This document shows positions 934 to 41,168 of a stretch of DNA of 64,000 bases, one piece after another. Both the position numbers and the translations under genes were made by a program. The notes beneath the pieces are model-generated. The model searched no databases. It was not told the DNA's origin and was given only the letters and a program-made list of their open reading frames with translations. Source of the stretch: Ochromonas danica (Eukaryota > Sar > Chrysophyceae > Chromulinales > Chromulinaceae); NCBI GenBank assembly GCA_015146655.1, contig VKHL01000017.1, positions 1-64,000 of the forward strand. Direction: 5' to 3'. Within the stretch, counting starts at the first letter, position 1. Each line of letters begins with the position of its first letter.

Positions 934-1925
934 TCCGATTTGTAGGGTACTTGACAAACATGTTAGGTTTTGCTTTTAGGTATGATTGTTGAGTTATATG
1001 AAGTGAATATTGTGAAGCGAAACTTAACCTCTACTCCATCACATTTTGCCCCCACTCAGAATCATCGTGAAGTCACCCCCCACGTGGTGTTCGGTTTTCG
1101 GGTTAAAAAAGCAGTTTCTATAGTGTTTAATAAAGCAATTTGATTGAAATATTTTGTAGGGAATGGAGGCAGTATTTTGGCACGAACGAAGCTGCACTTG
1201 CTGGAAAGTCGTGTGATGATTACTCTGCAGTTAAAGAGATTTAGATGCTAAGGAGACTACGCAACTGCCACTGTGGGCTGCTGTGGGGGATCGAACGGAA
1301 GACCATGCAAAAGGGGGAGCTTACCACTGAGCTAACCGGGCTCGTGCTCCCCTTCCGCAGAGGCATATATCATACGTGTATGATCATATGCCACACCACG
1401 CACTTTTCTTCTCACAGATAGTTGCTAAACGCTGTCTTAAACAAACATATTTGTCATGAAAGAGTATAATAGTGTTTCATAATCCACAGATATCACGGAT
1501 ACTGCAGCTATTACCTAAAAGGCTGTTTAATACTGGCATGAAGAGTGGATCATCAGCAAAAAATATGAGTTGTAGTCCAGACAAAATCTTTTGATATTAA
1601 ACGGTTTTTCAATCAAAATTTGCACTCTATCATGTTAAATAGATAAAGAAGTATCAAATGGAGAGTCCAGAAAGAATAGAAATGTAAAAGGAGGATAAGA
1701 TCAAGAGATGAATAGAATGCAATGATTTCAAAACTTAAGCCATTTTTGCCAGTTATTATTGTGTTGCGTGTTGTCCCTCCTCGTGCACTTTCACTTCACT
1801 GGGAAGGTTGTGTGGGAGTGTGACGGTGTGGCACTGCCTGCTTTACGCTCTGCGCTGCAGCGGTGCGGCCCTTTGCATCACAATTTCATCCGATCTTTGT
1901 CTACCAAACTACCCATATCATCACC
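934..1925. other. intergenic region, AT-rich
   Basis: Nearly 1 kb with no convincing ORF. It holds the tRNA-like sequence listed separately (about 1272-1345, minus strand). The last 150 bases, GC-richer and pyrimidine-rich before the ATG at 1926, are probably the promoter and 5' UTR of the aminotransferase gene. Confidence 0.5.
1272..1345 (-). pseudogene. tRNA-like sequence (decayed tRNA or tRNA-derived SINE head)
   Basis: Read on the minus strand this has a very good box A (TTAGCTCAGTGGTAAGC, about 1320-1336) and a box B-like GTTCGATCC (1288-1296), in the order and spacing of a tRNA gene. The pieces do not fold as a working tRNA. The T-arm strands do not pair, the anticodon stem is weak, and the acceptor 3' strand does not match the 5' GAGCCCG. 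The loop region TTTTGCA would suggest Ala (UGC) or Lys ancestry. Best explained as a tRNA pseudogene or the pol III promoter part of a SINE; a non-standard functional tRNA is less likely. Confidence 0.45.
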
Positions 1926-3237
1926 ATGTCTACCAAGTGTTCGTTTCTATTTCTATTGGCAATACTACTAGCTGTATTGTTTACTACCTCTAAGGCGTTG
2001 AGTTTGAAGGGTCACAGACAATCTTTGAGAATGGTTACCACTTCTCCACAACAAGTTGTTGGCAAAGCAAATCTGGATTGGCCACATCTAGGGTTAGTAA
2101 TGCTACCACTTATCTCCCACCTTGCTTTCTCTAGCTAACAAGATTTGTTGTAGTTTTGAATATCGTCAAACAAACTCCTTTGTCGTTGGCGAATACAAAA
2201 ACGGCGCATGGAGTTCATTGCAGGTAAGAATGACTTTCTGATTAAGCTTATGCAGTGAGACTGATTTTCTTTGTCTGAATGTGTGCTTGTATGGGTGCTG
2301 AGTGTAGTCTGCTTCTGACCCCATGATCAAGATTCATATCGGAGCGACAGCACTTCATTATGGTCAAGCTTGCTTTGAGGGCCTGAAGGCATTCCATTGT
2401 AAAGATGGAAAAGTTCGTATCTTTCGACCTCAAGAGAATGCAAAGCGCATCTCTGACTCTGGTCAGAGAATATGTATGCCTGCTATCAGCGAGAGCTACT
2501 TCATCGAAGCCGCTAAGAGAGCAGTGGCTGAAAACTTGGATTTCTTACCACCTTATGGTACTGGTGGAGCACTTTATATTCGTCCTGTTCTCTTTGGATC
2601 TGGCCCTCGTATTGGCCTTCAGCCATCTGATGAGTATACCTTAGTTGTGATGGCGCTTCCTGTTGCTGACTATTACATTGGTGGATGGCATCCAGTTCAT
2701 GGCATTGTTGTGGACAGCTTCGATCGTGCTGCTCCTAAAGGTGTTGGTAATGTGAAAGTTGCTGGCAACTATGCTGCTGATATCTTGCCCAACACTTTGG
2801 CCAAGAAGAAAGGGTTCCCAATTGCTCTTTACTTGGATGCTAAAACCAATACCTTCGTGGAAGAGTTTAGCACATCCAATTTCATTGCTATCGACAAGAA
2901 TGGAGCATTCGTCACTCCTAAGAGCAATGCTATCTTGCCTTCTGTTACTAACAAGAGCTTGATGCAGATTGCTGCCGATGAAGGACACGAGGTTCAAGTT
3001 CGACCTGTGAGCATAGATGAAATTGTCAACGGCCAGTTTACCGAGATTGGTGCCTGTGGAACAGCTGTGGTCGTTACTCCAGTCGATCGCATTGTCTACA
3101 ATGACCAGGTTGTCAAGATTGGTGGTGAGAATGGTGTGCCAGAAGAGAAGTCTGTGTTGCGGAAGCTCTACAAGCGCATTCGCGCTATACAAACTGGCGA
3201 TGAGAAGGACAAGTTCGGATGGCTTGTAGACGTTTAA
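1926..3237 (+). CDS. BCAT: branched-chain amino acid aminotransferase, plastid-targeted
   Basis: Exons 1926-2092, 2154-2223 and 2308-3237 (388 aa). A fold-type IV PLP enzyme for the last step of Leu, Ile and Val synthesis, or the first step of their breakdown. Introns are 61 and 84 bp with GTTAGT and GTAAGA donors; the joins restore the family sequence DWPHLGFEYRQTNSFVV...HIGATALHYGQACFEGLKAF. The PLP lysine is K229, in GNVKVAGNYAAD, followed by the signature FVEEFSTSNFIAI. Residues 1-25 form a signal peptide ending TTSKA, with Leu next and then a Ser/Arg-rich stretch, as in presequences for plastids with extra membranes. That location is inferred. Length fits plant and algal BCATs. It is not overlapped by other genes; the next gene converges on it. 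Confidence 0.93.
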
Positions 3238-3402
3238 CATGGATCCTTACATTTTGATGATGATTTTGTGGTCTCTTGTCATTTAGGACTGTAGTTTGTT
3301 TTATGTCATAGAGTTAATGTTACGCACAGCGCTGTGCATATATTGATGCCAACAACACTCTGCTTCATTTATATCTATTATTAACAGCGAGATCAAAACT
3401 AA

Positions 3403-6166
3403 TCATATCATTGGATTGGTATCTTTTCGTTCCTTTGGGACCGCACCAGGACCCGAAGAAGAAGAGGGTTTAACACTTTTCGCACTTTCCGTCGAGGTAG
3501 GTACTATATGGAATTCGTCTTCAACGCTATCTGTCATATCGTTAGCTGGAGAAGGAACCTCACAAATGGTCACTCCAAGCTCTTCTTCCTTGAGACCCTT
3601 CTCTTGTTCAACAGAAGTTTCTTCCTCGTTTGTCTCTTCTAATGAGCTGTAATGGATAGCAGTGGGTGTCAAGGTGGGACCTAATAACCGCTTGAGCCCT
3701 CGCACGGGACCAAATGATTCAAGACGGTCTCGCAACGATCGATCCTCTTCTCCGTTTGGCTGGAAGGAGGCAGAAGAAGTGGATGGTTTCGAAATATTTG
3801 CCAATGCTGTCTTATCTTCTTCAAGGGCTTGCTTGCGAATAGCAGCTATGCTAGCTTCCACCAAATCATCTCCTCTTTTACTTGATCCACTGGCTTGAAC
3901 ATCTAATTGCTCTAATGATTGCATCAAGCTTCTTGCTAAGGAGTAGGCTGCTTCTCGCTCTACATAACAGACAACTGTAGCTCCTGCAGCCTGAAGTGCG
4001 ACAGCTTCTTCTTGAGTCGACGATCTACAAGAGAAACATTGGCAAATCCATCAAAATCTAAACTTGACAGAAACGCACCTATCAAGCTCACCTGACAAAA
4101 ATAGGAGTGTTTGGAAATGACAATCGAAGCCTTTGAACACATTTAACGGCATCTTCTCCTTCTCCATCTTTGCTGTCCTCTGCTACAGATCCCAAAACAA
4201 ATGCTCGAGGAGAGGTGACACCTGCCGTGGCGAGGACCAGAGGACGGGAACCATCTCCATACAATACTCTTAATCCCTCCTGATATGCCGAACTAACTCT
4301 CTTGGGATCCAAATCAAATGCAAGGTACTGCAAGTTGGGATGTTTCTCATTGGTTGGATCGCTATCTGTAGCATGGTTGCGATCAGCAAAGCGAATGGGC
4401 GGTCGTCCTGCAACAGATTCAGCCGATGAAGGTTCCTCATAAGATGTTTCGTCTTGAGACGTACGCAATCGATCGCGCTGCTCAAGACATAAAGCTACTT
4501 CCCTTCCCACTTCTCCAAAACCGCATATTACAACTGGATTGGGTACTTCATCGTGAAGAGACAAGATGGATGAAGCTGCAGGCAGGCTAGCACCAGGCAC
4601 GGCTGTAGACTTCTCAAGACTCTCAACTTTTTCTGCCAGCCAATCTCCTAACTTACCTAGAGCAGGTGTCAATGCCATAGAAAGCACAACTACTCCAACT
4701 AATACTTTTGCCAATTGAGAAGGTAATACTTGCAAACGATCTGCTAATGTTAACACAACAAAAGCGAATTCTCCGCCTCCAGCGAGCAAGAGACCAGTAC
4801 GAATACTATCACCTTTGGAAAGCCCAAAGAAAGGACCTAGACATGTGGTTATGATCGTCTTAAAGGACAGCAAGCCAAACAATAAGGCAAGAACTGTTGG
4901 CCAGGCCTGACCCAGAACATGAGGGTCGACAGAAGCTCCCGTGGTCAAGAAAAACAATCCTAGTAACAACCCCTTGAATGGTTTAATATCTGATTCGATT
5001 TGAGTTCGATAATTGGACTCTGCGAGCAGTGTGCCTGCTAAGAAAGCACCTAAAGTAGCTGATAGCCCAATAGAGTTGGTAAAAGCACCTAATCCAACTG
5101 CCACTAATAGACACAGTGCAATGAAAGTCTCTGATGACTTGGTACGAGCAACCATAGAGAAAAGGAAACGAATAATACGTCCACCAATAAGTTGAATAAC
5201 CGAGAGACCAAATAGGGCTTTGGCAAACGTCAGCAGCACAAACACAGCTTGTAATGTGAACGAGCTGTCACTCTTTTGCTCTAATATTGGTAACAAGACT
5301 AACAGGGGTACAACGGCCAAGTCTTGTAGCAAGAGAATACCCAAAGATGCCTCACCAGTAGCTGTACCTAGCTTACCTTTCTCTTGTAGAAGTTGTAAAA
5401 CAAAAGCTGATGATGACAGAGATAATGCAATACCTATCACTAAAGCCTCATCAACACGACTAATATCAACCATAGCTGGGTCAGCAGAACCCCATGTAAG
5501 AAATTCTAATAGATGTACTCCACCCAAGAAAGGGAAAACAAAGAATGCCGCAGAGGATAGTAACACTTGCAACGATCCCATACCAAATGCAAACTTAGAA
5601 ACACTCTTTAGTCTAGAAACAGTTAGTTCTAATCCTTGTTCAAAGAGTAAAAAGAGAACACCAAAGTCAGCTAAGGACTCCATATCGGATAGGTCAGAGA
5701 AGAGATGTAAACCAGCAGGTCCCATTAGCAATCCAGCGGAGAGGAAGCCAAGCACTGGACTAGCCTTGAGCCATTTGAAAAGTGGCACAATGCCAATAGT
5801 AGCACATAGGAAAATCAACAAGTCATTCCCAAGAAAGTCTAATGTACTCGAAGTGGTGGCTTCTTCTACAGGAGGTGATGCAGAGGCTAATGCTTGCTCA
5901 GCCAAGACCACAGGTTCACTATGATAGACAGCTTGGAAAGGTTGTAGAATAGTGTCAATGATTCCACTTCTTAGTGGTTGGAGACGATAGGAAGGCTTTG
6001 GTAAGCTAGCAGCATGGCATGGTATGGCAAGGTGGTGGTGACTGATGGGAGACGTCAGCAACACTCTATTGGGTAATGACCGCTGCCATGCAATTACTAC
6101 ATCTCTTACTAAGAGAAAACAGAAAATGTAGTAATAACATGAAAGATATGATATCTTGATCATCAT
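3403..6166 (-). CDS. KEA: K+/H+ antiporter of the KEA/KefB (CPA2) family
   Basis: Exons (transcript order) 6166-4092 and 4024-3403, intron 67 bp (GTGAGC donor), 898 aa. The join gives PIFVR-SSTQEEAVALQAAGA, continuing a nucleotide-binding domain. The N-terminus has a hydrophobic segment ending VVIA before Trp27, then a basic, hydroxylated stretch, consistent with plastid import. Residues about 110-510 form the Na+/H+ exchanger domain, including ASPVLGFLSAGLLMGP, FEQGLEL and QDLAVVPLL. Residues about 544-720 are a TrkA-N/KTN domain with the NAD-binding loop GFGEVG (549-554). The C-terminal tail is acidic and disordered. Plant KEA1-3 adjust stromal pH and K+ in chloroplasts. The open frame extends upstream to 6385, but that part is translated minisatellite, so I start at the ATG at 6166. 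Confidence 0.9.
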
Positions 6167-6254
6167 ATTTTCAAATTGTTTCTCACAATTGAAACTGATG
6201 AAATCGATTTGGTTGTCGATGAAGTGAAGCGGACGGAAAAATGACTCATTCCAC

Positions 6255-6415
6255 ATCCGAAACAACGAAACAACGAAACAACGAAACAACGAAACAACGA
6301 AACAACGAAACAACGAAACAACGAAACAACGAAACAACGAAACAACGAAACAACGAAACAACGAAACTACGAAACTACGAAACAACGAAACTACGAAACT
6401 ACGAAACTACGAAAC
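6255..6415. repeat. 8-bp minisatellite (CGAAACAA)n with CGAAACTA variants
   Basis: About twenty tandem copies of an 8-bp unit. The left two thirds are uniform CGAAACAA; the right third is mostly CGAAACTA. Just beyond, at 6427-6449, GTTTCGTTCTGTTTCGTTT is the same motif on the other strand. Because 24 bp is three units and eight codons, the minus strand stays open and would read FVVSLFRC repeated, which falsely lengthens the antiporter frame. It lies in the 323-bp gap between two divergent genes and so within their shared 5' region. Confidence 0.95.
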
Positions 6416-8247: not shown

Positions 8248-8991
8248 TCAAACGGCGGGGATGAACGACGGAACCAAATTCACAGTCGAAGTGATTATTT
8301 TCACTACATAACCTTCCTTATTAAAGTGAAAGGAAATCTTCACATAGAAATCAACAGATACAATTGCAGGCTGGACAATGGTATAAGATGCACTTGTCAT
8401 ATCCTCACAGTCGGGTAATTGCTGTCCTTCAGGATAGACCAACCTGGTCCCCTTTGCTTTGCCATATAACTCAACAATCGAGATGTTTTCGTATAACTTA
8501 CGTATGATACGACTGCCTAAAGGAATCAATGCATAGTCAGGGACATGAGCGAAAAAGGATGGTGCGCGGTCAGCATATTCATCAGATCCTTCATATTTCA
8601 TAAAAGGAGATCCAATTTGAGGAAGAGGTTCAAAAATATATTCACATTGTGGGGTCATAAAACGAGAAACAAATCTCGCAAAGTACTTGAAATCTCCTCC
8701 ATTCAATGCGTTGCAATACATGGTTGGAAATAACTTGCGCACATCTTTTTTCACCAAGAGCTTGAAAGTCCTTCGAAAGCTTCGATAGTGCTCTGATCGT
8801 CCAGGCATCTTTCTTCCATCCTCATTGATTGGAGAAGATAATTCAGAGTGATGATGATGTGCGACAGAGTGTTCATCTTCAGACGAGATAGTGATAGTAG
8901 CACTGTTCTCAGTTACCTGTTTGTCATCATTTCCCTCCACTGCTGGAAGATGGAAATCAAGATCCCATAAAAGTTCAATTGCTTCCTTCAT
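8248..8991 (-). CDS. array paralogue 1 of 6: uncharacterised protein, possibly NTF2-like
   Basis: 247 aa from the ATG conserved across the array (MKEAIELLWDLDFHLP). An acidic Ser/His-rich linker (residues about 25-60) precedes a basic stretch and a conserved block: KKDVRKLFPTMYCNALNGGD, EPLPQIGSPFMKYEGSDEY, PDYALIPLGSRIIRKL, then alternating strands ending VVKIITSTVNLVPSF. A helix with ALNGGD followed by beta strands resembles SnoaL/NTF2-like folds; this is a weak structural guess. The frame stays open upstream of the ATG (FIGRLGSETDSF...VLPQKRNLLA) to a good acceptor with a CTAAC branch site (CACTAACCTGAAATAG, about 9095-9110). A 5' exon may therefore exist in this copy. No operon; each copy has its own flanks. 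Confidence 0.75.
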   Translation of the reverse strand: MKEAIELLWDLDFHLPAVEGNDDKQVTENSATITISSEDEHSVAHHHHSELSSPINEDGRKMPGRSEHYRSFRRTFKLLVKKDVRKLFPTMYCNALNGGDFKYFARFVSRFMTPQCEYIFEPLPQIGSPFMKYEGSDEYADRAPSFFAHVPDYALIPLGSRIIRKLYENISIVELYGKAKGTRLVYPEGQQLPDCEDMTSASYTIVQPAIVSVDFYVKISFHFNKEGYVVKIITSTVNLVPSFIPAV

Positions 8992-9603
8992 AGCCAGGAG
9001 ATTTCTCTTTTGTGGGAGGACTTCTCTTAAGCGGTAGGTGTTGGTAAAACTGTCAGTCTCACTACCAAGACGACCAATAAAGTCAATCCTATTTCAGGTT
9101 AGTGAAAGTAACAACCAAATTGCGGAATGAGATCACTTATCTCTTATCCTTATTAATTGAGAATGCTGTGCTCGAACAGGAGACACACGCAAACACACAC
9201 AGTCATGACAGCATACTACAGGTAAGCAAATACATAACTAATTAAGTAATATATTAATTCAATGCTGAGCCATTGCTCAGAGAAGACACAATTCAACAGT
9301 AGGGCAATCAAAGAAGTAAGTTTACAAAATTGATTATCAAACCCAATCCTTGTCAGAGAGTGGAGGAAGTTGCGTGCTGCTTCTTGTCATTGTCTCTTTT
9401 CAGAAGGGTGAAGGTCGAGGTCCGGAGGTGCAGGCAGAGAGGGTGGACAAGACAACAAGGGAGAAAACAAAACGAAAACCAGCAGGGAAACTCTGCTGAT
9501 GTTGTTCGCGGCTATATAATACCTGGAATAGCCAGCAGCTGGAAAAGCCTATCGTATTGACTCATTGCAACAACCCTCATTGCTCGTCGTATTGACTCAT
9601 TAT

Positions 9604-9870
9604 TATACCTTGGTCCTTTATTTCCGGTTGAAGATGCCACTTGCATGAGCAATCCAGACTTGAACCGTTGCATCCGTTATCTCTCTTCAAGCACCAGTCG
9701 CACCTTGATATCGAAGCCGTTGATTAATATCAACTCCGGAGGGGATATTAATCGACGGCTTTGATATCAAGGTGCGACTGGCGTTTGAGGAGAGATCACG
9801 GATGTTACAGTGCCATCTACATTGCTTATGCAAGTGGCATTTGCAACCGGAAATAAAGGACCAAGGTATA
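9604..9870. repeat. long foldback (inverted repeat, two arms of about 128 bp)
   Basis: The left arm (9604-9731) starts TATACCTTGGTCCTTTATTTC and ends GATTAATATC; the right arm (9744-9870) is its near-complete reverse complement, ending GAAATAAAGGACCAAGGTATA. The 12-base loop contains the palindrome CTCCGGAG. A few mismatches and small indels separate the arms (for example near 9638-9660). No coding capacity. It could be a foldback or MITE-type element, or a template for hairpin RNA. No clear target-site duplication was seen; a 14-base direct repeat CGTATTGACTCATT sits to its left (about 9551 and 9587). Confidence 0.9.
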
Positions 9871-9995
9871 GTACACAGACAGCAGAAGTGAAAGCCGATA
9901 GCGATGACGACGAGGAGTATGATACGTTACAAGATGTTCCTATCCATGCTGAAATGATCTCCGCTGCCTCCTTTCTTCCAACTACGTCCCTGGCA

Positions 9996-10010
9996 AGGGT
10001 TAGGGTTAGG
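9996..10010 (+). repeat. interstitial telomere-type repeat (TTAGGG)
   Basis: AGGGTTAGGGTTAGG, two and a half units of the TTAGGG telomere repeat used by many eukaryotes, inside the array spacer. Short enough to be chance, but it lies in a region of rearrangement. Confidence 0.5.
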
Positions 10011-10605
10011 TCTTCCGCTATCTCTCTCGCAATGAGGACGTAGAAGGCACTGTGAATGGAGTAAAGGAGTTAGAAAAAGGAGCTGGAGTCGAATGCGTGG
10101 AAAGAAGAAATCCAAAGATCGCCTTTCATTAGTAGTGTGGAAGTGGTGTGGAAGTGCACGACATCATATAGTATGCTGATCTCAATCAGAACATACGATG
10201 CAGCATAATATGAGTTGATCCCACCCTTTTGCAGCAGTGATAAACAGTGCGAAGAGGATTATTTTACATACACATATATACATATTCCTCCTTGGAACAC
10301 GATTGGCAGCAAACTGCAGATAAGAGCCCGAAGAAAACAACCACTGGACAGAGACTTGTCATTCACGCATGACTTAGCAATGAAAGGAGGGTGTCATCAG
10401 AATAGTTCAACATGTAAATAAAACGTAGCCAGGCCTCATCCTTGGCCTGTGATATATATCAAGTACACTGTACTACAACACTTCTAAAATCAGTCTAATA
10501 ATATTGGCACGGAAATTGCACCCAACTATATATATATAGTAAAATCAAACGTATAGTGCAATGCATGATATACTATGCTCACACTAACTACCACATAAAA
10601 TTTAT

Positions 10606-11397
10606 TCAAACGACGGGGACGAACGACGGAACCAAATTCACAGTCGAAGTGACTGTTTTCACCACATATCCATCAGTATTAAAGTGAAAGGCAATCTTCA
10701 TATAAAAATCAACAGATACAATCATAGGTTGAATAAGAGCGTCAGATGCACTTGTCATCTCCTCACAGTCGGGCTGTTGTTGCCCTTCAGGATAGATCAA
10801 CCTGGTCGCCTTTGCGTTGGCGTATAACTCAACAATCGATACATCTTCGTATAGCTTACGTATGATACGACTACCTAAAGGAATCAATGCATAGTCAGGG
10901 AGATGAGCAAAAAAGGATGGAGCACGGCTAGCATATTGATCAGATCCTTCATACGTCCTATAAGTGGTCAATCCTAGCTGAGGAAGAGGTTGGAAATTAA
11001 ACTCACACTGTGAGATCATATTACTAGAAATAAGCTTGTGGAATAATTTAAAGTCACCCTTATTCAAAGCATTGCAGTACATGGCAGGAAATAACTTTCG
11101 AACATCATTCTTCATGACACGCTTGAAGGTCATCTGCATGGTTCGATAGTGTAGTAATCGTCTATGCATCTTTCTTTTGTTTTCATTAGATTCAGTAGAT
11201 AAGCCCGAGTGACAATGCGGAGGATGAGGAGTGAGAGTGTCATTATCATGAGAGGTACTGCTGCTGGACCTTGTGAGAACAATTTTCTCCATGTCACTGT
11301 TTTCCTTTTCCCCAAAAAGACAAGAGTTCTTATCGTTTCCCTTCACCGGAAGGTGGGAATAATCGAGATCGCATGGTAGTTCAATTGCTTGCCTCAT
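10606..11397 (-). CDS. array paralogue 2 of 6: uncharacterised, possibly NTF2-like
   Basis: 263 aa from the ATG matching the array start (MRQAIELPCDLDYSHLPV). This is the most divergent copy in its N-terminal half. The linker is longer (KENSDMEKIVLTRSSSSTSH, HPPHCHSGLS) and the core reads KNDVRKLFPAMYCNALNKGD, PLPQLGLTTYRTYEGSDQY, PDYALIPLGSRIIRKLYED, VVKTVTSTVNLVPSFVP. Upstream of the ATG the conserved CCACCAAAAGAGAAAT stretch is interrupted and no longer open, unlike copies 1, 3, 4 and 5, so the protein probably begins at 11397. All core positions are intact, so it looks functional. Function unknown. Confidence 0.75.
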   Translation of the reverse strand: MRQAIELPCDLDYSHLPVKGNDKNSCLFGEKENSDMEKIVLTRSSSSTSHDNDTLTPHPPHCHSGLSTESNENKRKMHRRLLHYRTMQMTFKRVMKNDVRKLFPAMYCNALNKGDFKLFHKLISSNMISQCEFNFQPLPQLGLTTYRTYEGSDQYASRAPSFFAHLPDYALIPLGSRIIRKLYEDVSIVELYANAKATRLIYPEGQQQPDCEEMTSASDALIQPMIVSVDFYMKIAFHFNTDGYVVKTVTSTVNLVPSFVPVV

Positions 11398-11538
11398 GAC
11401 GAGAAGATACAATTTAATTTAATTGTGAGTCATTTCTCTTTTGGTGGATTTGCTGTTTGCTGTTTTAGTGATTTCACCGCGCAGATAGGAGGTTTAACTC
11501 GCTTTTCTCGGGTTTCAAGCTGCCTGCTGTAGTGAAAT

Positions 11539-11883
11539 ATGATTGAAGATGTAATATCTACTTGGATTCCAGTGGTGCCAAAATCCTCGGATGCACCACA
11601 ACCTCTTCAATCCGAGGTTTTTGACACCATTAGGATTGGTCCATCTGCTGCCCCCCATGAATCATCAGTCGATGACAACAATGTTGGCAAAATAGATAAC
11701 AGGGGCAGCAAGTTGTAAGTTGTGCTCTTTGTAAGTTGCGGAGGGTCAAGTGCGACTTCCACTAATCGACATTTCTTCCCTCACCCCAACGCAAACCATC
11801 ACAAATATCGGCACAGAGTTCTTCCCGAAGCTTCAAGAGAGCAAGCAAGTCTCATCGTCATCCAAACTCGCTTGCATGAGTAA
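11539..11883 (+). CDS. putative small two-exon gene (80 aa) divergent to array copy 2
   Basis: An ATG at 11539 opens 59 codons (MIEDVISTWIPVVPKSSDAP...) to a TAA at 11716. The canonical donor TT|GTAAGT at 11715 overlaps that stop, and an acceptor CGGCACAG ends at 11816. Splicing 11539-11714 to 11817-11883 keeps the frame and gives SK-LVLPEASREQASLIVIQ and a stop at 11881-11883, 80 aa in all. The intron would be 102 bp, normal here. The protein is acidic with no known domain. No counterpart was seen in the other array spacers. Evidence is only splice fit and codon-like composition, so chance is possible. Confidence 0.35.
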
Positions 11884-12170
11884 GAGCAAGTAGAAGTGAT
11901 AGGTGCAACGCTTACTTTACACATACATAGATATTCCCACATGGGATAAGTCAGAAGTCGGGAGTTCGAAAAAAACGACGACTGGGCAGAGAGTTGTCAT
12001 CCATGTACTTACTTGAACATAGCAACGAACGGAGCAGGTTCAAGAAAAAAACTATATCATATATCACACAGAAGTAATTCTTTGCTACAACTATTTTTAA
12101 AAGAAAAGTGCAAATAATGTATAACATAATAAGAAAATAGCCATACCAAGTAGTGAGCGAAGAAGATAAT

Positions 12171-12920
12171 CTAAACCGTGATTGATGGAACTAAATTCAC
12201 AGTCGAAGTGATTGTTTTCACCACATAACCATCTCTATTAAAGTGAAAGGAAATCTTCATATAAAAATCAACAGATACAATCGTAGGTTGGACAAGAGCA
12301 CCAGGTGTACTTGTCGTCCCCTCACAGTCGGGTAATTGCTGTCCTTCAGGATAAATGAACCTGGTCGCCTTTGCATTGGCATATAACTCAACAACTGAGA
12401 TATCGTCTTCCAATAACTTACGTATGATACGACTACCTACAGGTATCAATGCATGGTCAGGGAGATGAGCGAAGAACGAGGGAGCGCGATTAGCATATTC
12501 ATCCGACCCTTCATATTTCATAAAAGGAGATCCAATTTGAGGAAGAGGTTCGAAGATATATTCACATTGTGAGGCCATACAACGAGAAACAAATCTGCTG
12601 AAGAGTTTGAAATCTCCTCCATTCAATGCATTGCAATACATGGTTGGAAATAACTTGCGCACATCATTTTTCATCAAGTGCTTGAAAGTCTTTCGAAAGC
12701 TTCTGTAGTAGTCCAATCGCCTTTGTGTCTTTCTCCTTTTCTCATTGATCGGAGAAGATAAATCAGAGTGGTGATGATGAGCGACAGAGTCTTCATCTTC
12801 AGAAGAGGTAGTGGTACCACTTTTCTCTGTGCCTGCATTAGGCATTGGCCATTTTTCATCATTTCCCTCCACTGAAATGTGGAAATCAAGATCCCATAGA
12901 AATTCAATTGCTTCTTTCAT
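12171..12920 (-). CDS. array paralogue 3 of 6: uncharacterised, possibly NTF2-like
   Basis: 249 aa (MKEAIEFLWDLDFHISVEGN). Closest to copy 1: both share the linker SSEDEDSVAHHHHSDLSSPI (SSEDEHSVAHHHHSELSSPI in copy 1), FEPLPQIGSPFMKYEGSDEY and the ending VVKTITSTVNLVPS. The frame is open upstream through IVLPPKRNILR, matching the VLPQKRN stretch of copies 1, 4 and 5, so an unseen 5' exon or upstream start is possible. The 5' flank contains GATGCGTGGGCTGCG (about 13031), shared with copies 4 and 5 (GATGCGTGGGTTGCT), a candidate promoter-proximal element. The spacing to copy 2 includes the putative small plus-strand gene. Confidence 0.75.
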   Translation of the reverse strand: MKEAIEFLWDLDFHISVEGNDEKWPMPNAGTEKSGTTTSSEDEDSVAHHHHSDLSSPINEKRRKTQRRLDYYRSFRKTFKHLMKNDVRKLFPTMYCNALNGGDFKLFSRFVSRCMASQCEYIFEPLPQIGSPFMKYEGSDEYANRAPSFFAHLPDHALIPVGSRIIRKLLEDDISVVELYANAKATRFIYPEGQQLPDCEGTTSTPGALVQPTIVSVDFYMKISFHFNRDGYVVKTITSTVNLVPSITV

Positions 12921-13505
12921 TCTCAGGATATTTCTCTTTGGTGGGAGGACAATGTCCTCGGGTCTTTCCTGGGATGTGGCGCAGAGGGTGCGGGGTGTTT
13001 TGCAACTTTTGATGCTGATTCTATTATTGTGATGCGTGGGCTGCGAAAAACAACGGAAGTGATTGGCCTATTTTATGTAATGTCTTCCAATAAAATAGCC
13101 GTCGCACACAAACTGAAAGCATTGAGGCCAATTGATCTCTAAGCAACTCCCAGGTAAATAGTTTAAGTCATAGACTATTCATCTCTCACAATATCACCAC
13201 TTGTATATTTTAAGCTTTACATCACCACATGTATCAACGAAGTATACAAAACCATGTCGTTGCTAATGATCTTGTACTCACCATGACTAACAATATACTT
13301 CACAAAACCACAGCAAACATGTATCTGCAAAAGAAATTAACATAATGATCTATATATAATATGAAAAACTAGTCAACCGCCGATATTGAAATCCTGCACT
13401 TAGCAAGGTTTCGGAATAAAACAACTTCTTGAATGAGAAGGCATTGAAAACAAAAATGGTTTTGAACAGCAGCCCAAATCTCACCGCGGGCAGATAAGAA
13501 ATAAT
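12921..13505. other. spacer between array copies 3 and 4
   Basis: Contains the 5' flank of copy 3 and, from about 13150, the 3' flank unit of copy 4 (AGGTAAATAGTTTA...CACAATATCACCACTTG). That unit recurs at 14628 and 16083 before copies 5 and 6, but here with several base and length differences. No gene seen. Confidence 0.6.
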
Positions 13506-14246
13506 TTAAACTGAGATGAATGACGGAATAGAGGTGGCAATCGAAGTTATTGCTTTCACGACAAATCCGTGCTGATTAAAATGAAATGTTTTCTTCACAT
13601 CGAAGTCAACGAATTCAGTACTAGGTTGGACAAGAGTAGCAGAGCAGCATGAAGAAGCAATAGATTCGTCAGACGATTGTGCTTCAGGATAAATCAATCT
13701 CGTCGCTTTCATATTCACATAAAACTCGACTATAGAGATGTCTTCGTCTAACAGATGGCGAATGATACGACTACCCAACGGAGTGAATGCATAGTCAGGG
13801 AGAAAGCCAAAGACAGAATGTAGAAAGCTCATATATTGGTCAGGACCTTCAAATCTCATTAAGGGTAATCCCAACTGAGGAAGAGGTTGGCAAACAAACT
13901 CACACTGTGAGGTCATAAAGCGAGTAATAAGTCTGCGAATTAAGCTGAAGTCGCCACCATTCAAAGCATTGCAGTACATCGAGGGAAACAACTTGCGCAC
14001 ATCATTCTTCGGGACGCGCTTAAAAGTCATTCGCATGCTTTTATAGTGTTCTAATCGTCTGCGCACCTTTCTTCCACTCACATTGACGTTATTGGACAAG
14101 CCAGAGTCGTGATGAGTGAGAGAGTCCTCATCGTCGAAAGAGTTGGTGAGATCAGTATTAGTAAGATTCCAGTCAGTGGATGTCTTGTCATCTTCCTTAA
14201 CAGGAAGGTGGAAGTCAAGATCCCATAGAAGTTGCATCGCTTCCTT
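13506..14246 (-). CDS. array paralogue 4 of 6: uncharacterised, possibly NTF2-like
   Basis: 246 aa from the conserved ATG (MKEAMQLLWDLDFHLPVKED). Its predicted protein is identical to copy 5. Compared with copies 1-3 the core has changed: GGDFSLIRRLITRFMTSQCE, GPDQYMSFLHSVFGFLPDYA, FTPLGSRIIRHLLDEDIS, and a Ser-rich insertion before VQPSTEFVDFDVKKTFHFN. The frame is open upstream as IVLPQKRNLLAA to an in-frame TAA. Its 3' flank differs from that of copy 5 by scattered substitutions, while its 5' flank is identical to copy 5 as far as I compared. Confidence 0.78.
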   Translation of the reverse strand, partial: KEAMQLLWDLDFHLPVKEDDKTSTDWNLTNTDLTNSFDDEDSLTHHDSGLSNNVNVSGRKVRRRLEHYKSMRMTFKRVPKNDVRKLFPSMYCNALNGGDFSLIRRLITRFMTSQCEFVCQPLPQLGLPLMRFEGPDQYMSFLHSVFGFLPDYAFTPLGSRIIRHLLDEDISIVEFYVNMKATRLIYPEAQSSDESIASSCCSATLVQPSTEFVDFDVKKTFHFNQHGFVVKAITSIATSIPSFISV

Positions 14247-14960
14247 CATAGCCGCCAGGAGATTTCTCTTTTGTGGGAGGACAATCAAACAAATTTACTG
14301 GATTGATAATCAAACCCACAGCAGAGCAACAGTACAGTGATGCGTGGGTTGCTAATAATAACGGAACCATTGTTGTCAACTTTCCCTCTCACAGAGAAGG
14401 AACAAGACAAACATTACAACAGAAACCGTGGCAAGCGAGCCGACAATAAATCAAAAGCAAATGGCTAACAAGATAGTGAGCATTAGAAAACTACTCATTC
14501 GCCTCGTGTTAACTTTATTCCCGACTATACAAAAGACTAGTTGATGATCTTAACACTGAAGGTCTTTGTATTGATTGTTAGTGTGCGTATCCAAAATTAA
14601 AGGCTCAGAATATGGTTCATGGTGTCAGGTAAATAGTTTATATCATAGACTAATCATCTCTCACAATATCACCACTTGTATATTTTAAGCTTTACATCAC
14701 CACAGGTATCCATAAAGTTATACAACACCATGTCGTTGCTAATGATCTTGTACTCACCATGACTAACAATATACTTCATTAAACCACCGCAAACATGTAT
14801 CTACACGAAAAAATGATCATAATGATCTATATAATATGAAAAACTAGTCAACCGCCGATATTGAAATCCTACACTAAGTAAGGTTTCGGAACAAACACTG
14901 AAAACAAAAATGGTTTTGAACAGCAGCCCAAATTTTCACCGTGGGCAGATAAGAAATAAT
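14247..14960. other. spacer between array copies 4 and 5
   Basis: The 5' flank of copy 4 (to about 14625) abuts the 3' flank of copy 5. The whole spacer recurs at 15702-16415. It holds the GATGCGTGGGTTGCT motif (about 14339) and no ORF of note. Confidence 0.6.
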
Positions 14961-15701
14961 TTAAACTGAGATGAATGACGGAATAGAGGTGGCAATCGAA
15001 GTTATTGCTTTCACGACAAATCCGTGCTGATTAAAATGAAATGTTTTCTTCACATCGAAGTCAACGAATTCAGTACTAGGTTGGACAAGAGTAGCAGAGC
15101 AGCATGAAGAAGCAATAGATTCGTCAGACGATTGTGCTTCAGGATAAATCAATCTCGTCGCTTTCATATTCACATAAAACTCGACTATAGAGATGTCTTC
15201 GTCTAACAGATGGCGAATGATACGACTACCCAACGGAGTGAATGCATAGTCAGGGAGAAAGCCAAAGACAGAATGTAGAAAGCTCATATATTGGTCAGGA
15301 CCTTCAAATCTCATTAAGGGTAATCCCAACTGAGGAAGAGGTTGGCAAACAAACTCACACTGTGAGGTCATAAAGCGAGTAATAAGTCTGCGAATTAAGC
15401 TGAAGTCGCCACCATTCAAAGCATTGCAGTACATCGAGGGAAACAACTTGCGCACATCATTCTTCGGGACGCGCTTAAAAGTCATTCGCATGCTTTTATA
15501 GTGTTCTAATCGTCTGCGCACCTTTCTTCCACTCACATTGACGTTATTGGACAAGCCAGAGTCGTGATGAGTGAGAGAGTCCTCATCGTCGAAAGAGTTG
15601 GTGAGATCAGTATTAGTAAGATTCCAGTCAGTGGATGTCTTGTCATCTTCCTTAACAGGAAGGTGGAAGTCAAGATCCCATAGAAGTTGCATCGCTTCCT
15701 T
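14961..15701 (-). CDS. array paralogue 5 of 6: identical protein to copy 4
   Basis: 246 aa, the same amino acid sequence as copy 4. Its 5' flank matches copy 4 and its 3' flank matches copy 6, so the gene is a structural chimera of its two neighbours. That is what unequal crossing-over within the shared coding region produces. All core motifs (NDVRKLFPSMYCNALNGGDF, PLPQLGLPLMRFEGPDQY) are intact. Function is as unknown as for the others; higher dosage of the same protein is the plain consequence. Confidence 0.78.
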   Translation of the reverse strand, partial: KEAMQLLWDLDFHLPVKEDDKTSTDWNLTNTDLTNSFDDEDSLTHHDSGLSNNVNVSGRKVRRRLEHYKSMRMTFKRVPKNDVRKLFPSMYCNALNGGDFSLIRRLITRFMTSQCEFVCQPLPQLGLPLMRFEGPDQYMSFLHSVFGFLPDYAFTPLGSRIIRHLLDEDISIVEFYVNMKATRLIYPEAQSSDESIASSCCSATLVQPSTEFVDFDVKKTFHFNQHGFVVKAITSIATSIPSFISV

Positions 15702-16415
15702 CATAGCCGCCAGGAGATTTCTCTTTTGTGGGAGGACAATCAAACAAATTTACTGGATTGATAATCAAACCCACAGCAGAGCAACAGTACAGTGATGCGT
15801 GGGTTGCTAATAATAACGGAACCATTGTTGTCAACTTTCCCTCTCACAGAGAAGGAACAAGACAAACATTACAACAGAAACCGTGGCAAGCGAGCCGACA
15901 ATAAATCAAAAGCAAATGGCTAACAAGATAGTGAGCATTAGAAAACTACTCATTCGCCTCGTGTTAACTTTATTCCCGACTATACAAAAGACTAGTTGAT
16001 GATCTTAACACTGAAGGTCTTTGTATTGATTGTTAGTGTGCGTATCCAAAATTAAAGGCTCAGAATATGGTTCATGGTGTCAGGTAAATAGTTTATATCA
16101 TAGACTAATCATCTCTCACAATATCACCACTTGTATATTTTAAGCTTTACATCACCACAGGTATCCATAAAGTTATACAACACCATGTCGTTGCTAATGA
16201 TCTTGTACTCACCATGACTAACAATATACTTCATTAAACCACCGCAAACATGTATCTACACGAAAAAATGATCATAATGATCTATATAATATGAAAAACT
16301 AGTCAACCGCCGATATTGAAATCCTACACTAAGTAAGGTTTCGGAACAAACACTGAAAACAAAAATGGTTTTGAACAGCAGCCCAAATTTTCACCGTGGG
16401 CAGATAAGAAATAAT
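15702..16415. other. spacer between array copies 5 and 6
   Basis: A repeat of the 14247-14960 spacer, with no difference found in the stretches compared. No gene seen. Confidence 0.6.
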
Positions 16416-17165
16416 TTAAACTGAGATGAATGACGGAATAGAGGTGGCAATCGAAGTTATTGCTTTCACGACAAATCCGTGCTGATTAAAATGAAATGTT
16501 TTCTTCACATCGAAGTCAACGAATTCAGTACTAGGTTGGACAAGAGTAGCAGAGCAGCATGAAGAAGCAATAGATTCGTCAGACGATTGTGCTTCAGGAT
16601 AAATCAATCTCGTCGCTTTCATATTCACATAAAACTCGACTATAGAGATGTCTTCGTCTAACAGATGGCGAATGATACGACTACCCAACGGAGTGAATGC
16701 ATAGTCAGGGAGAAAGCCAAAGACAGAATGTAGAAAGCTCATATATTGGTCAGGACCTTCAAATCTCATTAAGGGTAATCCCAACTGAGGAAGAGGTTGG
16801 CAAACAAACTCACACTGTGAGGTCATAAAGCGAGTAATAAGTCTGCGAATTAAGCTGAAGTCGCCACCATTCAAAGCATTGCAGTACATCGAGGGAAACA
16901 ACTTGCGCACATCATTCTTCGGGACGCGCTTAAAAGTCATTCGCATGCTTTTATAGTGTTCTAATCGTCTGCGCACCTTTCTTCCACTCACATTGACGTT
17001 ATTGGACAAGCCAGAGTCGTGATGAGTGAGAGAGTCCTCATCGTCCGAAGAATTCGAGTTGGTGATACTGGTATTAGTCAGGTCCCAGTCATTGGATGTC
17101 TTGTCATCTTCCTTAACAGGAAGGTGGAAATCAAGATCCCATAGAAGTTGAATCGCTTCTTTCAT
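16416..17165 (-). CDS. array paralogue 6 of 6: uncharacterised, possibly NTF2-like
   Basis: 249 aa from the ATG at 17165 (MKEAIQLLWDLDFHLPVKED). Residues from about 45 onward equal copies 4 and 5; the linker before that differs (NDWDLTNTSITNSNSSDDED against TDWNLTNTDLTNSFDDED). Its upstream region is unrelated to the other copies and GC-richer. The frame stays open upstream to 17342 with a Pro/Ala-rich stretch lacking family similarity, so I use the conserved ATG. It is the outermost member, and its different promoter suggests different regulation. Confidence 0.75.
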   Translation of the reverse strand: MKEAIQLLWDLDFHLPVKEDDKTSNDWDLTNTSITNSNSSDDEDSLTHHDSGLSNNVNVSGRKVRRRLEHYKSMRMTFKRVPKNDVRKLFPSMYCNALNGGDFSLIRRLITRFMTSQCEFVCQPLPQLGLPLMRFEGPDQYMSFLHSVFGFLPDYAFTPLGSRIIRHLLDEDISIVEFYVNMKATRLIYPEAQSSDESIASSCCSATLVQPSTEFVDFDVKKTFHFNQHGFVVKAITSIATSIPSFISV

Positions 17166-23924: not shown

Positions 23925-25277
23925 TTAATCCAATTCCTCTATGCTAGCTATTTTAACATTTGGGATGGAAGCAATTGCACTGGGCTCAGAAGAAACCTCT
24001 GGCTGTTTCACTATATTAGCCAACTGTGCGTGAATAGAAGCTTCTTGCATCATTTGTTCTTGTAAAGACAAAGTCTTGCTAGTGGTCTTCACGCGCACTC
24101 TATCCTCATCAGACTTTTTCTTCTGGTTTTGTTTGCCTTGTATAAAAGGTGTGAAGGCATTCCTATCATTCGATCGCTCGGGTTTGCGAGATCGGATATC
24201 TCCTCGAATGGTGACCTCGTTTTCTCTTGGATTGGTCTTTGGCATGATAATCAGCAGTGCACCATTGCTCTTCGATCGCTGGCATTTGCTGTCACTTACA
24301 TTTACTTCCGCTGGCAAACGCAACCGAAGAACTTTACTTTTGATCACCATGGAAACGTAATGTGGATGAATGTCCACATCAATCAAGGAAGAATCCAGAA
24401 ACCTCGCCACTCGAACTTCCAAGAGAACATACCCAGGACGAGACTCTTCATCCCAGAAAAATTCCCAGCCTCCTTCATTCTTTTGTTTGATTTCTTTTTC
24501 TTCCACTTCACTCTCTTTCTGACGAGTGGATTGAACTGCTTCTTGCTGTTCAGCATCAAAATCTCGCTCTTTTGGAGCATTGACTCGAGAACGATCTTCC
24601 TTCTCCTTCTTTTGCTGAGCTAATTCTTGATAGATCTTGACCCGTACTTCAGGAGTGTTTTCCGTCAATTCATTGTCGTCCTCCTGGTTTGTGGTGTCAG
24701 CGGTAATGGGGAGCTCCTCCACCTTCTTCAATCGTTTCTGCTCGGCTAGATCTTCTAATTCACATTCTAGGCGCGGAAGACTTTGCATGGCAACAATTCG
24801 CATGGATTTTGTGATTTCTGTGCCATCGAGGCTTTTGAGTTGTGGTAGCTTGGCAATGACGTAGGAATTGAAGTGTTCCCAATGTGCTTGAGCAGGATTA
24901 CCCATAAGGTAAAGCTCTTCAAGTCGTGTTCGACTTTGAAGATGTTCAATACTCTCTTTCAACTTGTCAAAGTCAATAAAATTCACTGTCAGATCTAATT
25001 TCCGCAAGAATTCACAATTTTGTAATCCTTCAATACAAGTGATATTATTCAACGCTAAGTTAAGATATTCCAAATCTTTCATATGTTGTAAATTCTCTAT
25101 CTTAGGGATGATATTGTTTTGTAAATAGAGGATTTTGAGTTTTCGACAAGTTTTGCCCAAGACTTCATTAATGCTTTCTAACTCTTCTTGATGAAGAGAG
25201 ATCTCTTCCATCGTAGAGATGATACCTTCATTATGCTCAGCTCTCTTTCTTAACAATTCACGAGTGATATGTGGCAT
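23925..25277 (-). CDS. DNAAF11: DNAAF11 (LRRC6/TILB) dynein arm assembly factor
   Basis: 450 aa, one exon, starting at MPHITRELLRKRAEHNEG; four codons upstream is another ATG (25289), equally possible. Residues about 15-150 are SDS22-type leucine-rich repeats: LKILYLQNNIIPKIENL, LEYLNLALNNI, LRKLDLTVNFIDF, LEELYLMGNPAQAHWEHF. The LRR cap LPQLKSLDGTEI follows, then a charged coiled region and a CS-like domain (YVLLEVRVARFLDSSLIDVD, RLPAEVNVSD, ALLIIMPKT). This order and these motifs match vertebrate LRRC6 closely. The family acts in the cytoplasm to preassemble outer and inner dynein arms, so this organism makes motile cilia. Head to head with the LYR gene, 161 bp apart. Confidence 0.95.
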   Translation of the reverse strand: MPHITRELLRKRAEHNEGIISTMEEISLHQEELESINEVLGKTCRKLKILYLQNNIIPKIENLQHMKDLEYLNLALNNITCIEGLQNCEFLRKLDLTVNFIDFDKLKESIEHLQSRTRLEELYLMGNPAQAHWEHFNSYVIAKLPQLKSLDGTEITKSMRIVAMQSLPRLECELEDLAEQKRLKKVEELPITADTTNQEDDNELTENTPEVRVKIYQELAQQKKEKEDRSRVNAPKERDFDAEQQEAVQSTRQKESEVEEKEIKQKNEGGWEFFWDEESRPGYVLLEVRVARFLDSSLIDVDIHPHYVSMVIKSKVLRLRLPAEVNVSDSKCQRSKSNGALLIIMPKTNPRENEVTIRGDIRSRKPERSNDRNAFTPFIQGKQNQKKKSDEDRVRVKTTSKTLSLQEQMMQEASIHAQLANIVKQPEVSSEPSAIASIPNVKIASIEELD

Positions 25278-25438
25278 GGTCAATGTCAATCAAAAACAAC
25301 AATGGAACGATGAATGATGATGAAACTCAACAGTTTCACTCTTAAGTTAATAAACTGTTTCTCATTTAAAAGCGCGTTGTTCAAAACTCTGCTTGGGTAA
25401 AGGCATTCTTGGCAGCATAGGGTTGGAGTAGAGAGAGA
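25278..25438. promoter_or_regulatory. shared promoter region of DNAAF11 and the LYR gene
   Basis: 161 bp between two divergent starts, AT-rich, no ORF. Its bidirectional use is inferred from the gene layout only; no element is recognised. Confidence 0.4.
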
Positions 25439-26657: not shown

Positions 26658-26937
26658 GGTTGATGCTTTCTTTGCTCTGACTGGTTTTGTGGTGAGAGCG
26701 CCACAAACTCTCTTTGGCAGGCTTTATTCGGGGTTCAGGACTTTAGAATATTCGTCTTTTCGAGATGTGCCTTTTCGAGACGAGTTTTCGAAAATGCCAA
26801 AGGGGTGAAACGGCTGTGATAGAGAAAGGAGCAGTTGATCGATGAGAACAAAGTTTGAGCTGTGTTATGAGATTTTAAATTAACTTGGTTATTTTTAGTT
26901 CAGTTTTGAATCTTAAGTTACTGTGATTTTGATTATC
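26658..26937. promoter_or_regulatory. shared upstream region of RPL29 and CFAP57
   Basis: 280 bp between two divergent ATGs; a pyrimidine/AG-rich leader next to RPL29 and AT-rich sequence next to CFAP57. Promoter role inferred from position. Confidence 0.4.
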
Positions 26938-29900
26938 ATGGAGAATTCGATGGTTAATCCACCTCGAGAAGGTGGTGGGGATAGTAATACAACAAGTAAT
27001 ACTCTTCGTTTACAAGTCAAACATGCTTTTGGTTGTCAACCCACACGACTTGATGCAATCCAATCCTTCTCTGCTTCCTCAGGAAATAAAGACTATTCAG
27101 ATCGTCTAGTACATAAAATAGGTAAACAACTCTGTGTGTATGATCCTGAAACAGGTCGTCAAGAGTTTTTCGAAGGTCGTGCACGAAATCTAGTGGATAT
27201 TGTACATTTCAACATTTCCACTAATGCACGTTATATCTCTATGTGTGAGAATATACGACATGAGAAAGCTAGTAATGATGCTGGATCTCAAGTTAGCATC
27301 TATTCCTTGTCGACTATGTCTCGATTGAAGACTTTACATTATTCCCTACCACGACCTTTCCTCTGTTCTACATTCTGTGGAGATGTGAAGTTAGTTGCTG
27401 CATTAAGTGATGAACCTGATCGACATATTGTTATCTGGCAATGGGAGAAAGAGAAAGTCTATAAAGTTATTGCTATCACAGTGTCGGCGTTGTTGTTACG
27501 ATCAGCACCGTGTCAGACACTCATGCTAACGACTACAGGCCATGCTGCTCTCAAGCATTGGACCATTGCTCCAGATGGAAGTTTGAAATGTGGCAACTTC
27601 TTACCACCTGCTAAAGAATCATTAGATAACTACACAGATCATGTATGGCAAGTTTCCTCATTGGGTAATCATCGTATGATTGTTCTAGTAGATCCTGATA
27701 CTAATAGTGAGATCAATCGCAATCGAAGACAATCGATTTATATCTTTGAAGGAATGGATCCAGCTCACGCTGGTGCATCCTCTACCAATGCAATGGGTAT
27801 CAGTAGTAGTAGTTCAAGTGGTTTACCTATTAGCATGGAATTAAAACAAACTTTAGCATTAAAATTAGATCCTGGATGTCGTATTGAAAAGATTATTTGC
27901 TCACCTAAGACACTTATGGTTGTTGGATATGGTGGGTTTATTGCTGCCTATGAGCGCACTGATGATAAACAAGAGCCTTATGTAGAGTCACGCAGATTGT
28001 CCCTGGGCGACAAGCATCTTATTGGTGGAGCTATTTATCCCTCAGATGAAAAGATGGTCTTATTGACCAAGCAAGGACGTCTTCTGACCATGCAATTAGA
28101 TGTCACGATCGATCAGATTAAGAAGACGGTAGCTATGTTAGGCAATAGCGCTGGAGGTGAAGATGTTGATAGTGTTCACAGTCAAGATGGTGGTGGGTCG
28201 ATTAACAATAGTTCGGCCGCGGGAACGAATGCATCAAACTCATATAATAGCTCAAGTGGTATTAGTGATATGCGCTCAGGTGGTCATCATACAGCGGCTA
28301 TCTTAGCAGCTGATATTGCCTTTGAACGACCTCTCATTGTCTCCGTTGCAGCTGATGCTACTGCCCGTATTTGGAACTATCTCACAGGGAAATGTGAAGT
28401 TGTTCATTCTTTCCGCATGGAAGAGCCTATAACAGTTGCTTTCCATCCATCAGGATATCAAATCTTAGTCTCTTTCAAAGATCGTATTCGTTCTTATCAT
28501 GTCTTGATTGACAAAATAAAACCATTCCGTGAAACTATTGTTAAAAACGCCAAATGTTTGAAATATAGTAATGGTGGTCAATATTGGGCTGCTGCTTCTG
28601 CTATTAATGTCTCTGTTTACGAAACACGTACTTTCACTCAACTTGTCAACTATCAAGGACATCAACTGACCGTAGTTCGGTTGTGTTGGGCACCAGGCGA
28701 TGAAGTGCTCTTTTCTGCTGGTATGGATGGTAATGTTTATGGTTGGCCAGTTTCTAGAGAAGGTCGAATGGAAGTGGTTGCTGCTAATACCAGATCCTCT
28801 GCTATCTTGGATATGGTGGCGGATTGTCCTTCAACGGTCTTCCTTGCCTCCACTAAAGACCAAGATGATGATGTTAGCACGGTGGGCAATCCATCAGGCA
28901 ATGTTGGACAATCTACAGGCAATAACAATATCAATTCCTTGAGTACTAATAAAGCCCAATCCAATGCGGTTGTTAATACCAAGAATGAAGATGCTCAAGC
29001 TTTAACGCAATTCCAACAAGCTGTACTTCCTGATAATCGATCTTGGTTAGTGATCTCTTCTTTAGATGGACATTTACGAATGCCTGTGTGGTCTTTACAA
29101 GCAGTAGCAAAGCAACAACCTCATCATCCTGGCCATGGTCCCAGTGCTGCCACTGTTAGCATCCTGGCATCCTCACAAAATGCACTTAGCAAATACTATA
29201 CCAATATTGATAGTATGTCTATAATGTATGGTGATTCTTCTATCAGCATGACAGCAATGGCTTTGTCAGCTGATCGTACGAAACTCTTTGTTGGTACTAG
29301 TATGGGGTCTATTAGAATCTATCCTTGGCCTCCAGACCCTAACAACATGCCAGCATATGTCCCAACAGGCGCTACAGGTAGTCATGCGACTGGCCATGAA
29401 AAAGGTCGTGCCTCTCAGCATGGAGGTACAGGAGGAGGAGAAGGAGATAGAGAGCATGGCAGCAATCATCTTCCTCCAACTGTAACACATGCTAGCTTAT
29501 GTGTAGAGTATTTCACACATTCAGCTGCTGTTGTCTCTATTGCCTTAGGTCCAGTTGAAAATACTCTTATTTCAACAGCTGCAGATGGATCCATATTTAT
29601 TCATAACTACACTAACCAACCTATCACTAATGCTAATAAGAAAACTCGAGGATCATCTCCTAATAATCAAGCAGGTGCTTTATATAGTATGGAGTTTGAA
29701 AATACAGAAGAAGGTATTCAACTTAATCGAGAAGTTGTCTTATTAGCTGTAGAAGATATTGAAGATCATATTAATGATATTGTTGATTTACATAAACTAT
29801 TAAATGAAACACGTGCTAAGAATGAATTTCAAGCAAGAAAGTTAGAAGTTGAACATAATGAAGCTCTTCGTCGAGTGACTGAAGTTCATGATCAAACATT

Positions 29901-37732: not shown

Positions 37733-37890
37733 TGGATGGAAAGTGTTGTGTGGGACTAGGAAAGCCTTAAGTTAAGAGATAAAAGTCGAAGTTTACCATT
37801 CGAAAAGGTGACTTTCCTCTCTCACACTATCCCGTCGTTTGCTTTGTCATCCTTGGTGTCAATCAAACAATTCCTAACAGACAATCAGAG

Positions 37891-40800: not shown

Positions 40801-41168
40801 GCGATATTTATGCCTCGCTAGGTCCGCTTCGAGATGAGAGTGAGGAAGACAGTGTAATGGCAGTGGGTTATGACCCTACGTTGAAGATGGAAGAGGTGAA
40901 TTACATGAAAGCATTGGCTTGTCGATTGCGTAGTCGCGGTGCTGTTGTTGTGAATGTCTTGGATCAAACAGTCTCACATGTTATCCTTTGTGCTCACAAG
41001 GCGACAGCGGAGGGTCGGAGTATTGTACGAGACCATCTCCACCAACTCCGTCTGAAGCGAGGAATAGGATGTGAAAAACGAATTGTTACATCTCAATGGG
41101 CTGAGAGGTGCATTGAAGAAGAGCGGTTGGTCACGCCCACCAGCGAGATGATCATCTCCTTGCTCTGA
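37891..41168 (+). CDS. LIG4: DNA ligase IV (ATP-dependent)
   Basis: Exons 37891-40223, 40323-40379 and 40457-41168 (1033 aa). Introns of 99 and 77 bp, phase 2, join as GTKRTLQLKNLIQQGEKD and DFSFIVACLDAGYCLPEHV, which rebuilds the first BRCT repeat. The N-terminal DNA-binding domain (1-240) has the LIG4 pattern (RLLLPLVDNERGKYGLKQ). The adenylation motif is LKLDGER with catalytic K269. Other motifs are IIDGEICAM, GHEGLVVKSL and HWLKMKPEY. BRCT1 spans about 720-825 and BRCT2 about 930-1033 (VSHVILCAHK, SQWAERCIEEERLV), with the XRCC4-binding linker between. It seals breaks in non-homologous end joining. Slightly longer than the human protein (911 aa), mostly from a Lys-rich segment before BRCT1. 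Confidence 0.95.

Follow-up and report, generated by a model that had tools for sequence, protein, structure and literature searches.

A six-copy tandem gene array in Ochromonas danica is one cluster of a large family with a probably NTF2-like core

The first 64,000 nucleotides of contig VKHL01000017.1 of the chrysophyte Ochromonas danica (assembly GCA_015146655.1), referred to below as the window, contain at positions 8248–17165 six intact paralogous genes of the minus strand, arranged head to tail and coding for proteins of 247–263 amino acids (aa). The locus raises the question of what family these genes belong to, whether they form an isolated expansion, and what keeps one part of their products so alike. 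The six genes belong to a large family that is scattered over the genome of this alga, and in most members examined a variable tail is followed by a basic stretch and then by a conserved core, which is probably NTF2-like, of the SnoaL type.

The presence of six intact head-to-tail paralogues, noted in an earlier reading of the letters alone (the original prediction), is borne out by the frame coordinates (Table 1) and by pairwise matches, with identities of 48–100% over 256–268 columns and E from 7e-83 to 5e-174 for stop-to-stop frames. The surroundings are single-copy within the window, as had been claimed, since among its 48 frames of at least 120 aa no further pair was found at E<=1e-5 beyond the six copies. 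A six-frame profile scan of the whole window gave no seventh copy or remnant, and weak plus-strand profile scores at 6161–6413 (best E 0.028) were judged to be due to chance. Copies 3–6 are spaced by 1338, 1455, and 1455 base pairs (bp). Copies 4 and 5 lie in 1455-bp units with four differences only, close to one end, and in the direct repeat that spans copies 4–6 the third unit equals the second over about its first 663 bp. Copy 6 has in common with copies 4 and 5 its downstream side and the whole core (ca. 663 identical bases), while its tail and upstream sequence have diverged, the tail by 5.5–6.5 silent differences (two counts).

The assembly amounts to 31.19 Mb in 337 contigs, with the window at the start of the contig designated C17. 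Genome matches at E<=1e-3 number 84 with copy 1 as the query and 96 with copy 4, and merging them with 11 extra places from two further queries gives 108 matching places on 52 contigs, a count that includes broken fragments and weak matches, not all inspected. Of these places, 61 fall into 17 clusters with gaps below 10 kb. An iterated profile, drawing on 39 of 40 fetched regions, the window, and some earlier loci, accepted 76 distinct frames (E<1e-5, over 150 aa); one duplicate locus (L014, the same as L007), frames no longer than 150 aa or with E>1e-5, and identical sequences (hence copy 5) were dropped before counting, and one C11 gene still counts twice, the second time as a truncated reading. 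In a tree of 74 frames, from which the C11 genes near 308–309.9 kb are absent, the array forms one group with two C11 genes and a C34 gene (support 97/85); copies 1–3 make up one branch (100/99), copies 4 and 6 stand there with identical cores, and the array as a whole is unsupported as a clade (54/8). The expectation of an expanding family is therefore confirmed by the number of places, their clustering, and the tree; as an array within the window the six copies stand as described, and what gives way is the idea of an isolated expansion, for they are one cluster of a genome-wide family. About a hundred places, with 76 profile-accepted frames, in a 31-Mb genome represent a sizeable unannotated share of the algal proteome: the best matches of 71 aligned cores were no better than E 0.0027 in Pfam and 0.006 in NCBIfam.

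The core is marked by the near-invariant positions K-x-D-x-R, N-x2-N, and P-D. In the 71-core alignment (one frame without the core motif excluded, and four of the 75 motif-bearing frames dropped as near-copies or a fragment) the residues D35, R37, M43, N46, N49, and D104 never vary, and conservation reaches at least 90% at K33, C68, and T135. The variable tail upstream of the core is net acidic in 51 of the 62 frames having at least 30 aa there, and after it comes a segment with a charge of at least +5 in 61 of 74 frames (a basic cluster in 60 of 74); these counts refer to stop-to-stop frames, so that some tails may hold untranslated codons. In the six array proteins the net charge over residues 1–60 is from -4 to -11. 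Their first 60 aa contain no N-terminal hydrophobic signal (best 19-residue Kyte–Doolittle mean at most 0.27), and on this ground a secreted effector-like NTF2 protein was rejected. A bZIP transcription factor was likewise rejected, bZIP being absent from the Pfam families, 15 in number, listed at E<=1 for 38 members.

Assignment of the core to a fold comes from several weak signals that agree. Pfam gave weak matches only for the array copies (five of the six were scanned, copy 5 being identical to copy 4), the 38 members, and the 71 cores, and NCBIfam gave scattered weak names only for the 71 cores. SnoaL_2 (PF12680) matched copies 4 and 6 with E 0.053 and 0.066, below its curated cut-off of 27 bits, the best scores being 14.8 bits in the 71 cores and 14.6 in the five array proteins, and SnoaL (PF07366) was absent from the Pfam families shown for the cores (25 of 26). 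A further connection is provided by a bridging group of three loci, L011, L060, and L061. L011 matches SnoaL with E 2.6e-5 and SnoaL_2 with E 1.6e-4, both under the curated cut-offs; the profile of the group matches that of the family with E 2.5e-5 (for that single comparison) and a probability of 75%, and its members individually rank first, third, and fourth of 295 targets against the family. Another locus, L062, joins the two, with E 3.4e-4 from L011 and E 4.7e-19 to the family profile. Against such a sequence link to NTF2-like families, the genome contains four further SnoaL_2-type proteins to which no direct link was found; they took ranks 9, 15, 34, and 38 of 112.

Structure models were made for five window sequences, each at full length and as the core, and their confidence (predicted local distance difference test, pLDDT, 36.5–39.2) is too low to settle the fold. 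The order of elements in these low-confidence models (four helices followed by two strands, a short helix, and a further two strands) fits an NTF2-like cone; judged by their titles, 37 of the 50 Foldseek rows shown (889 rows in all at E<=10) are NTF2-like, and so are most of the 50 rows of the VIA fold list. The structural check proposed with the original prediction thus gave fold lists that are mostly NTF2-like and, with pLDDT below 40, no confident model. Taken together, the SnoaL_2 matches, the bridging group, the order of elements, and the fold lists support as probable what was suggested there, a core of NTF2/SnoaL-like fold preceded by a variable acidic linker. Sequence rows from the PDB obtained with copy 1, the family profile, and L011 as queries (BtrN, E 0.044; mL80, 4.1; RuvB, 1.2) were judged to be at chance level. 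A viral origin was rejected, as no relative was confirmed in IMG/VR with the family profile, one C120 member, and the bridging-group profile as queries; nor was one confirmed in prokaryote contigs with the family profile. Next to one family member, in positions 1881–3500 (plus strand) of locus L020, lies a 540-aa frame that aligns collinearly to the core of the family (E 0.04, sixth of 295 targets), which may be a chance match or another NTF2-like protein.

This layout of acidic tail, basic stretch, and NTF2-like core, together with the absence of a signal peptide, suggests that the proteins act in the nucleus as adaptors or regulators. The reading tentatively preferred here, with somewhat less than even confidence, is that of a family of nuclear regulatory adaptors built on the NTF2-like core, with tail/core combinations made by gene conversion. 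Entry into the nucleus would depend on the basic stretch, and the cone would dimerise and/or bind a partner peptide or small ligand. The acidic tail would make contact with a partner in transcription or chromatin, and the proteins would together constitute a set of regulatory adaptors. On this reading the family would be both large and regulatory, yet would have no DNA-binding domain that is recognised.

From the same layout we infer that adaptors are to be favoured over SnoaL-type enzymes, a doubtful reading, though the chief alternative, in which the core would act on small molecules as a cyclase, isomerase, or hydrolase. The family would then be a diversified metabolic set and would add a repertoire of metabolism so far hidden. 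The connection with SnoaL profiles speaks for enzymes, as do the SnoaL2, ketosteroid isomerase, and limonene epoxide hydrolase rows in the VIA list and, in the available part of the account of an NTF2-like family of the diatom Seminavis robusta (PMC7335047), a remark of its authors on polyketides and the annotation of 19 of its 68 copies as SnoaL-like. However, an enzyme needs neither the acidic tail nor the basic stretch, SnoaL_2 does not reach its cut-off in the five array proteins or in any of the 71 cores, and none of the 10 Pfam-scanned window frames is a biosynthetic neighbour. Non-catalytic hubs or transport adaptors, whose core would multimerise as in the CaMKII hub or bind export factors as in NTF2 and Mtr2, are unlikely: CaMKII hub and Mex67:Mtr2 chains do occur among the Foldseek rows shown, and the basic stretch would suit such a role, but the Pfam families of the 38 members (15) and of the 71 cores (25 of 26 shown) include no kinase or export domain, and about a hundred copies would seem unlike a core transport factor.

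The original prediction explained the uniform core by purifying selection and the variable linker by drift or diversification. Between array copies the ratio of nonsynonymous to synonymous divergence (dN/dS), where computable and with copy 2 started one codon late, is 0.20–0.50 in the linker and 0.22–0.34 in the core. Both parts lie below 1, which upholds selection on the core in part; silent sites, however, suggest that conversion homogenised the core of some pairs and, in other pairs, the linker. Silent divergence is unequal between linker and core in 15 of 65 close pairs (Benjamini–Hochberg value <0.05), the core being the part with fewer silent changes in eight of them and the linker in seven. 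In two C4 genes the core has 1.0 silent changes per 116 sites and the linker 25.7 per 46, while another C4 pair presents the opposite case (linker 0/48, core 20.7/114), and copies 4 and 6 differ at 0/109 silent sites in the core and 5.5/46 in the linker. The best breakpoints relative to K-x-D-x-R lie at -43 to -4 codons in eight pairs, at +34 to +43 in six, and at +70 in one, with permutation p values that apply to these 15 already picked pairs alone. In this pair test two frames were excluded and the split was fixed at the motif; the pairs share members and so are not independent, the C11 genes missing from the tree are missing here too, and misalignment of gappy linkers can raise the linker silent count. 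The plain reading of unequal silent divergence in both directions is that it suggests segmental gene conversion or unequal crossing-over among paralogues, and core conservation in such arrays is then not readable as selection alone.

The same mosaicism could be a mere by-product of tandem recombination in a family that evolves mostly by birth-and-death drift, with many copies redundant and few expressed. The identity of copies 4 and 5 and a broken fragment with two stops (C4:143547–143843) fit this reading, which is nevertheless quite improbable, because 82 of the 84 copy 1 matches lack an internal stop and the dN/dS between array copies is 0.2–0.5. For the nuclear adaptors, segment copying between paralogues (gene conversion or unequal crossing-over) would give rise to new tail/core combinations. 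A bolder version, which is a long shot, sees the family as a recombining repertoire of nuclear sensors, with acidic activation-type tails and ligand-binding NTF2-like cores shuffled as modules by gene conversion into new sensor–output combinations among the hundred or so genes.

Table 1. Members of the array and the direct repeat, with positions in the window
Feature	Position	Strand	Remarks
Copy 1	8248–8991	-	247 aa; acidic tail, weakly basic stretch, NTF2-like core (probable)
Copy 2	10606–11397	-	263 aa, counted from ATG at 11397
Copy 3	12171–12920	-	249 aa
Copy 4	13506–14249	-	247 aa; protein identical to copy 5; weak SnoaL_2 match
Copy 5	14961–15704	-	247 aa; protein identical to copy 4
Copy 6	16416–17165	-	249 aa; core DNA identical to copies 4 and 5, tail diverged
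Direct repeat, period 1455 bp (copies 4–6)	13473–17045		

Other genes of the assembly bear on the organism. Red-type rbcL, photosystem II D1/D2 genes, and 47 light-harvesting matches, of which some represent pieces of exons, point to a photosynthetic alga of the red-plastid lineage. There are two clearly different red-type rbcL genes, on contigs C193 and C289 (loci L063 and L064), and five D1/D2 matches on four contigs. Together they suggest plastid DNA of two organisms, and because of the two rbcL genes the assembly may be mixed. Four light-harvesting matches at C224:8673–16382, evenly spaced by 2407 bp and with equal scores, form another recent tandem array. In the window, Pfam identifies an axonemal dynein assembly factor of the DNAAF11 type at 23925–25289, on account of which there may be a flagellate stage; the very long frame at 26917–32508 presumably codes for a WD-repeat coiled-coil flagellar protein. 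An ATP-dependent DNA ligase (Pfam) lies at 37783–40230, and we take it, together with the next frame (37783–41168), to be possibly ligase IV.

Among known systems, the oomycete M96 mating-specific family is likewise tandemly arrayed, concertedly evolving, and of stramenopile origin. SnoaL and SnoaL_2 resemble the Ochromonas family through the weak core matches of SnoaL_2 and the SnoaL match of the bridging group (2.6e-5); they differ in that the scores stay below the curated cut-offs and in that the Ochromonas family adds the K-x-D-x-R stretch, the acidic tail, and the basic stretch. The iota carbonic anhydrases of diatoms, in the available part of their description, also bring NTF2-like, CaMKII-hub-like domains to marine algae, but no CaMKII-hub or carbonic anhydrase model is among the 15 Pfam families listed for the 38 members. 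In the portions available of the literature on NTF2-like or SnoaL families of stramenopiles, diatoms, and oomycetes (including PMC7335047 and PMC5023847) no description of an acidic–basic–NTF2 architecture was found. The closest published kind, compared by description only, is the Seminavis family, which is NTF2-like, tandem-enriched, partly SnoaL-annotated, and, as far as the available part of its account goes, upregulated under seven or more conditions; that part mentions neither an acidic–basic architecture nor gene conversion (PMC7335047). With this 68-copy family in print, the view of the Ochromonas genes as an unplaceable family and the best candidate for an undescribed system was too strong: an expanded tandem NTF2-like family in a stramenopile alga is, on the part of the diatom account available, already known in kind.
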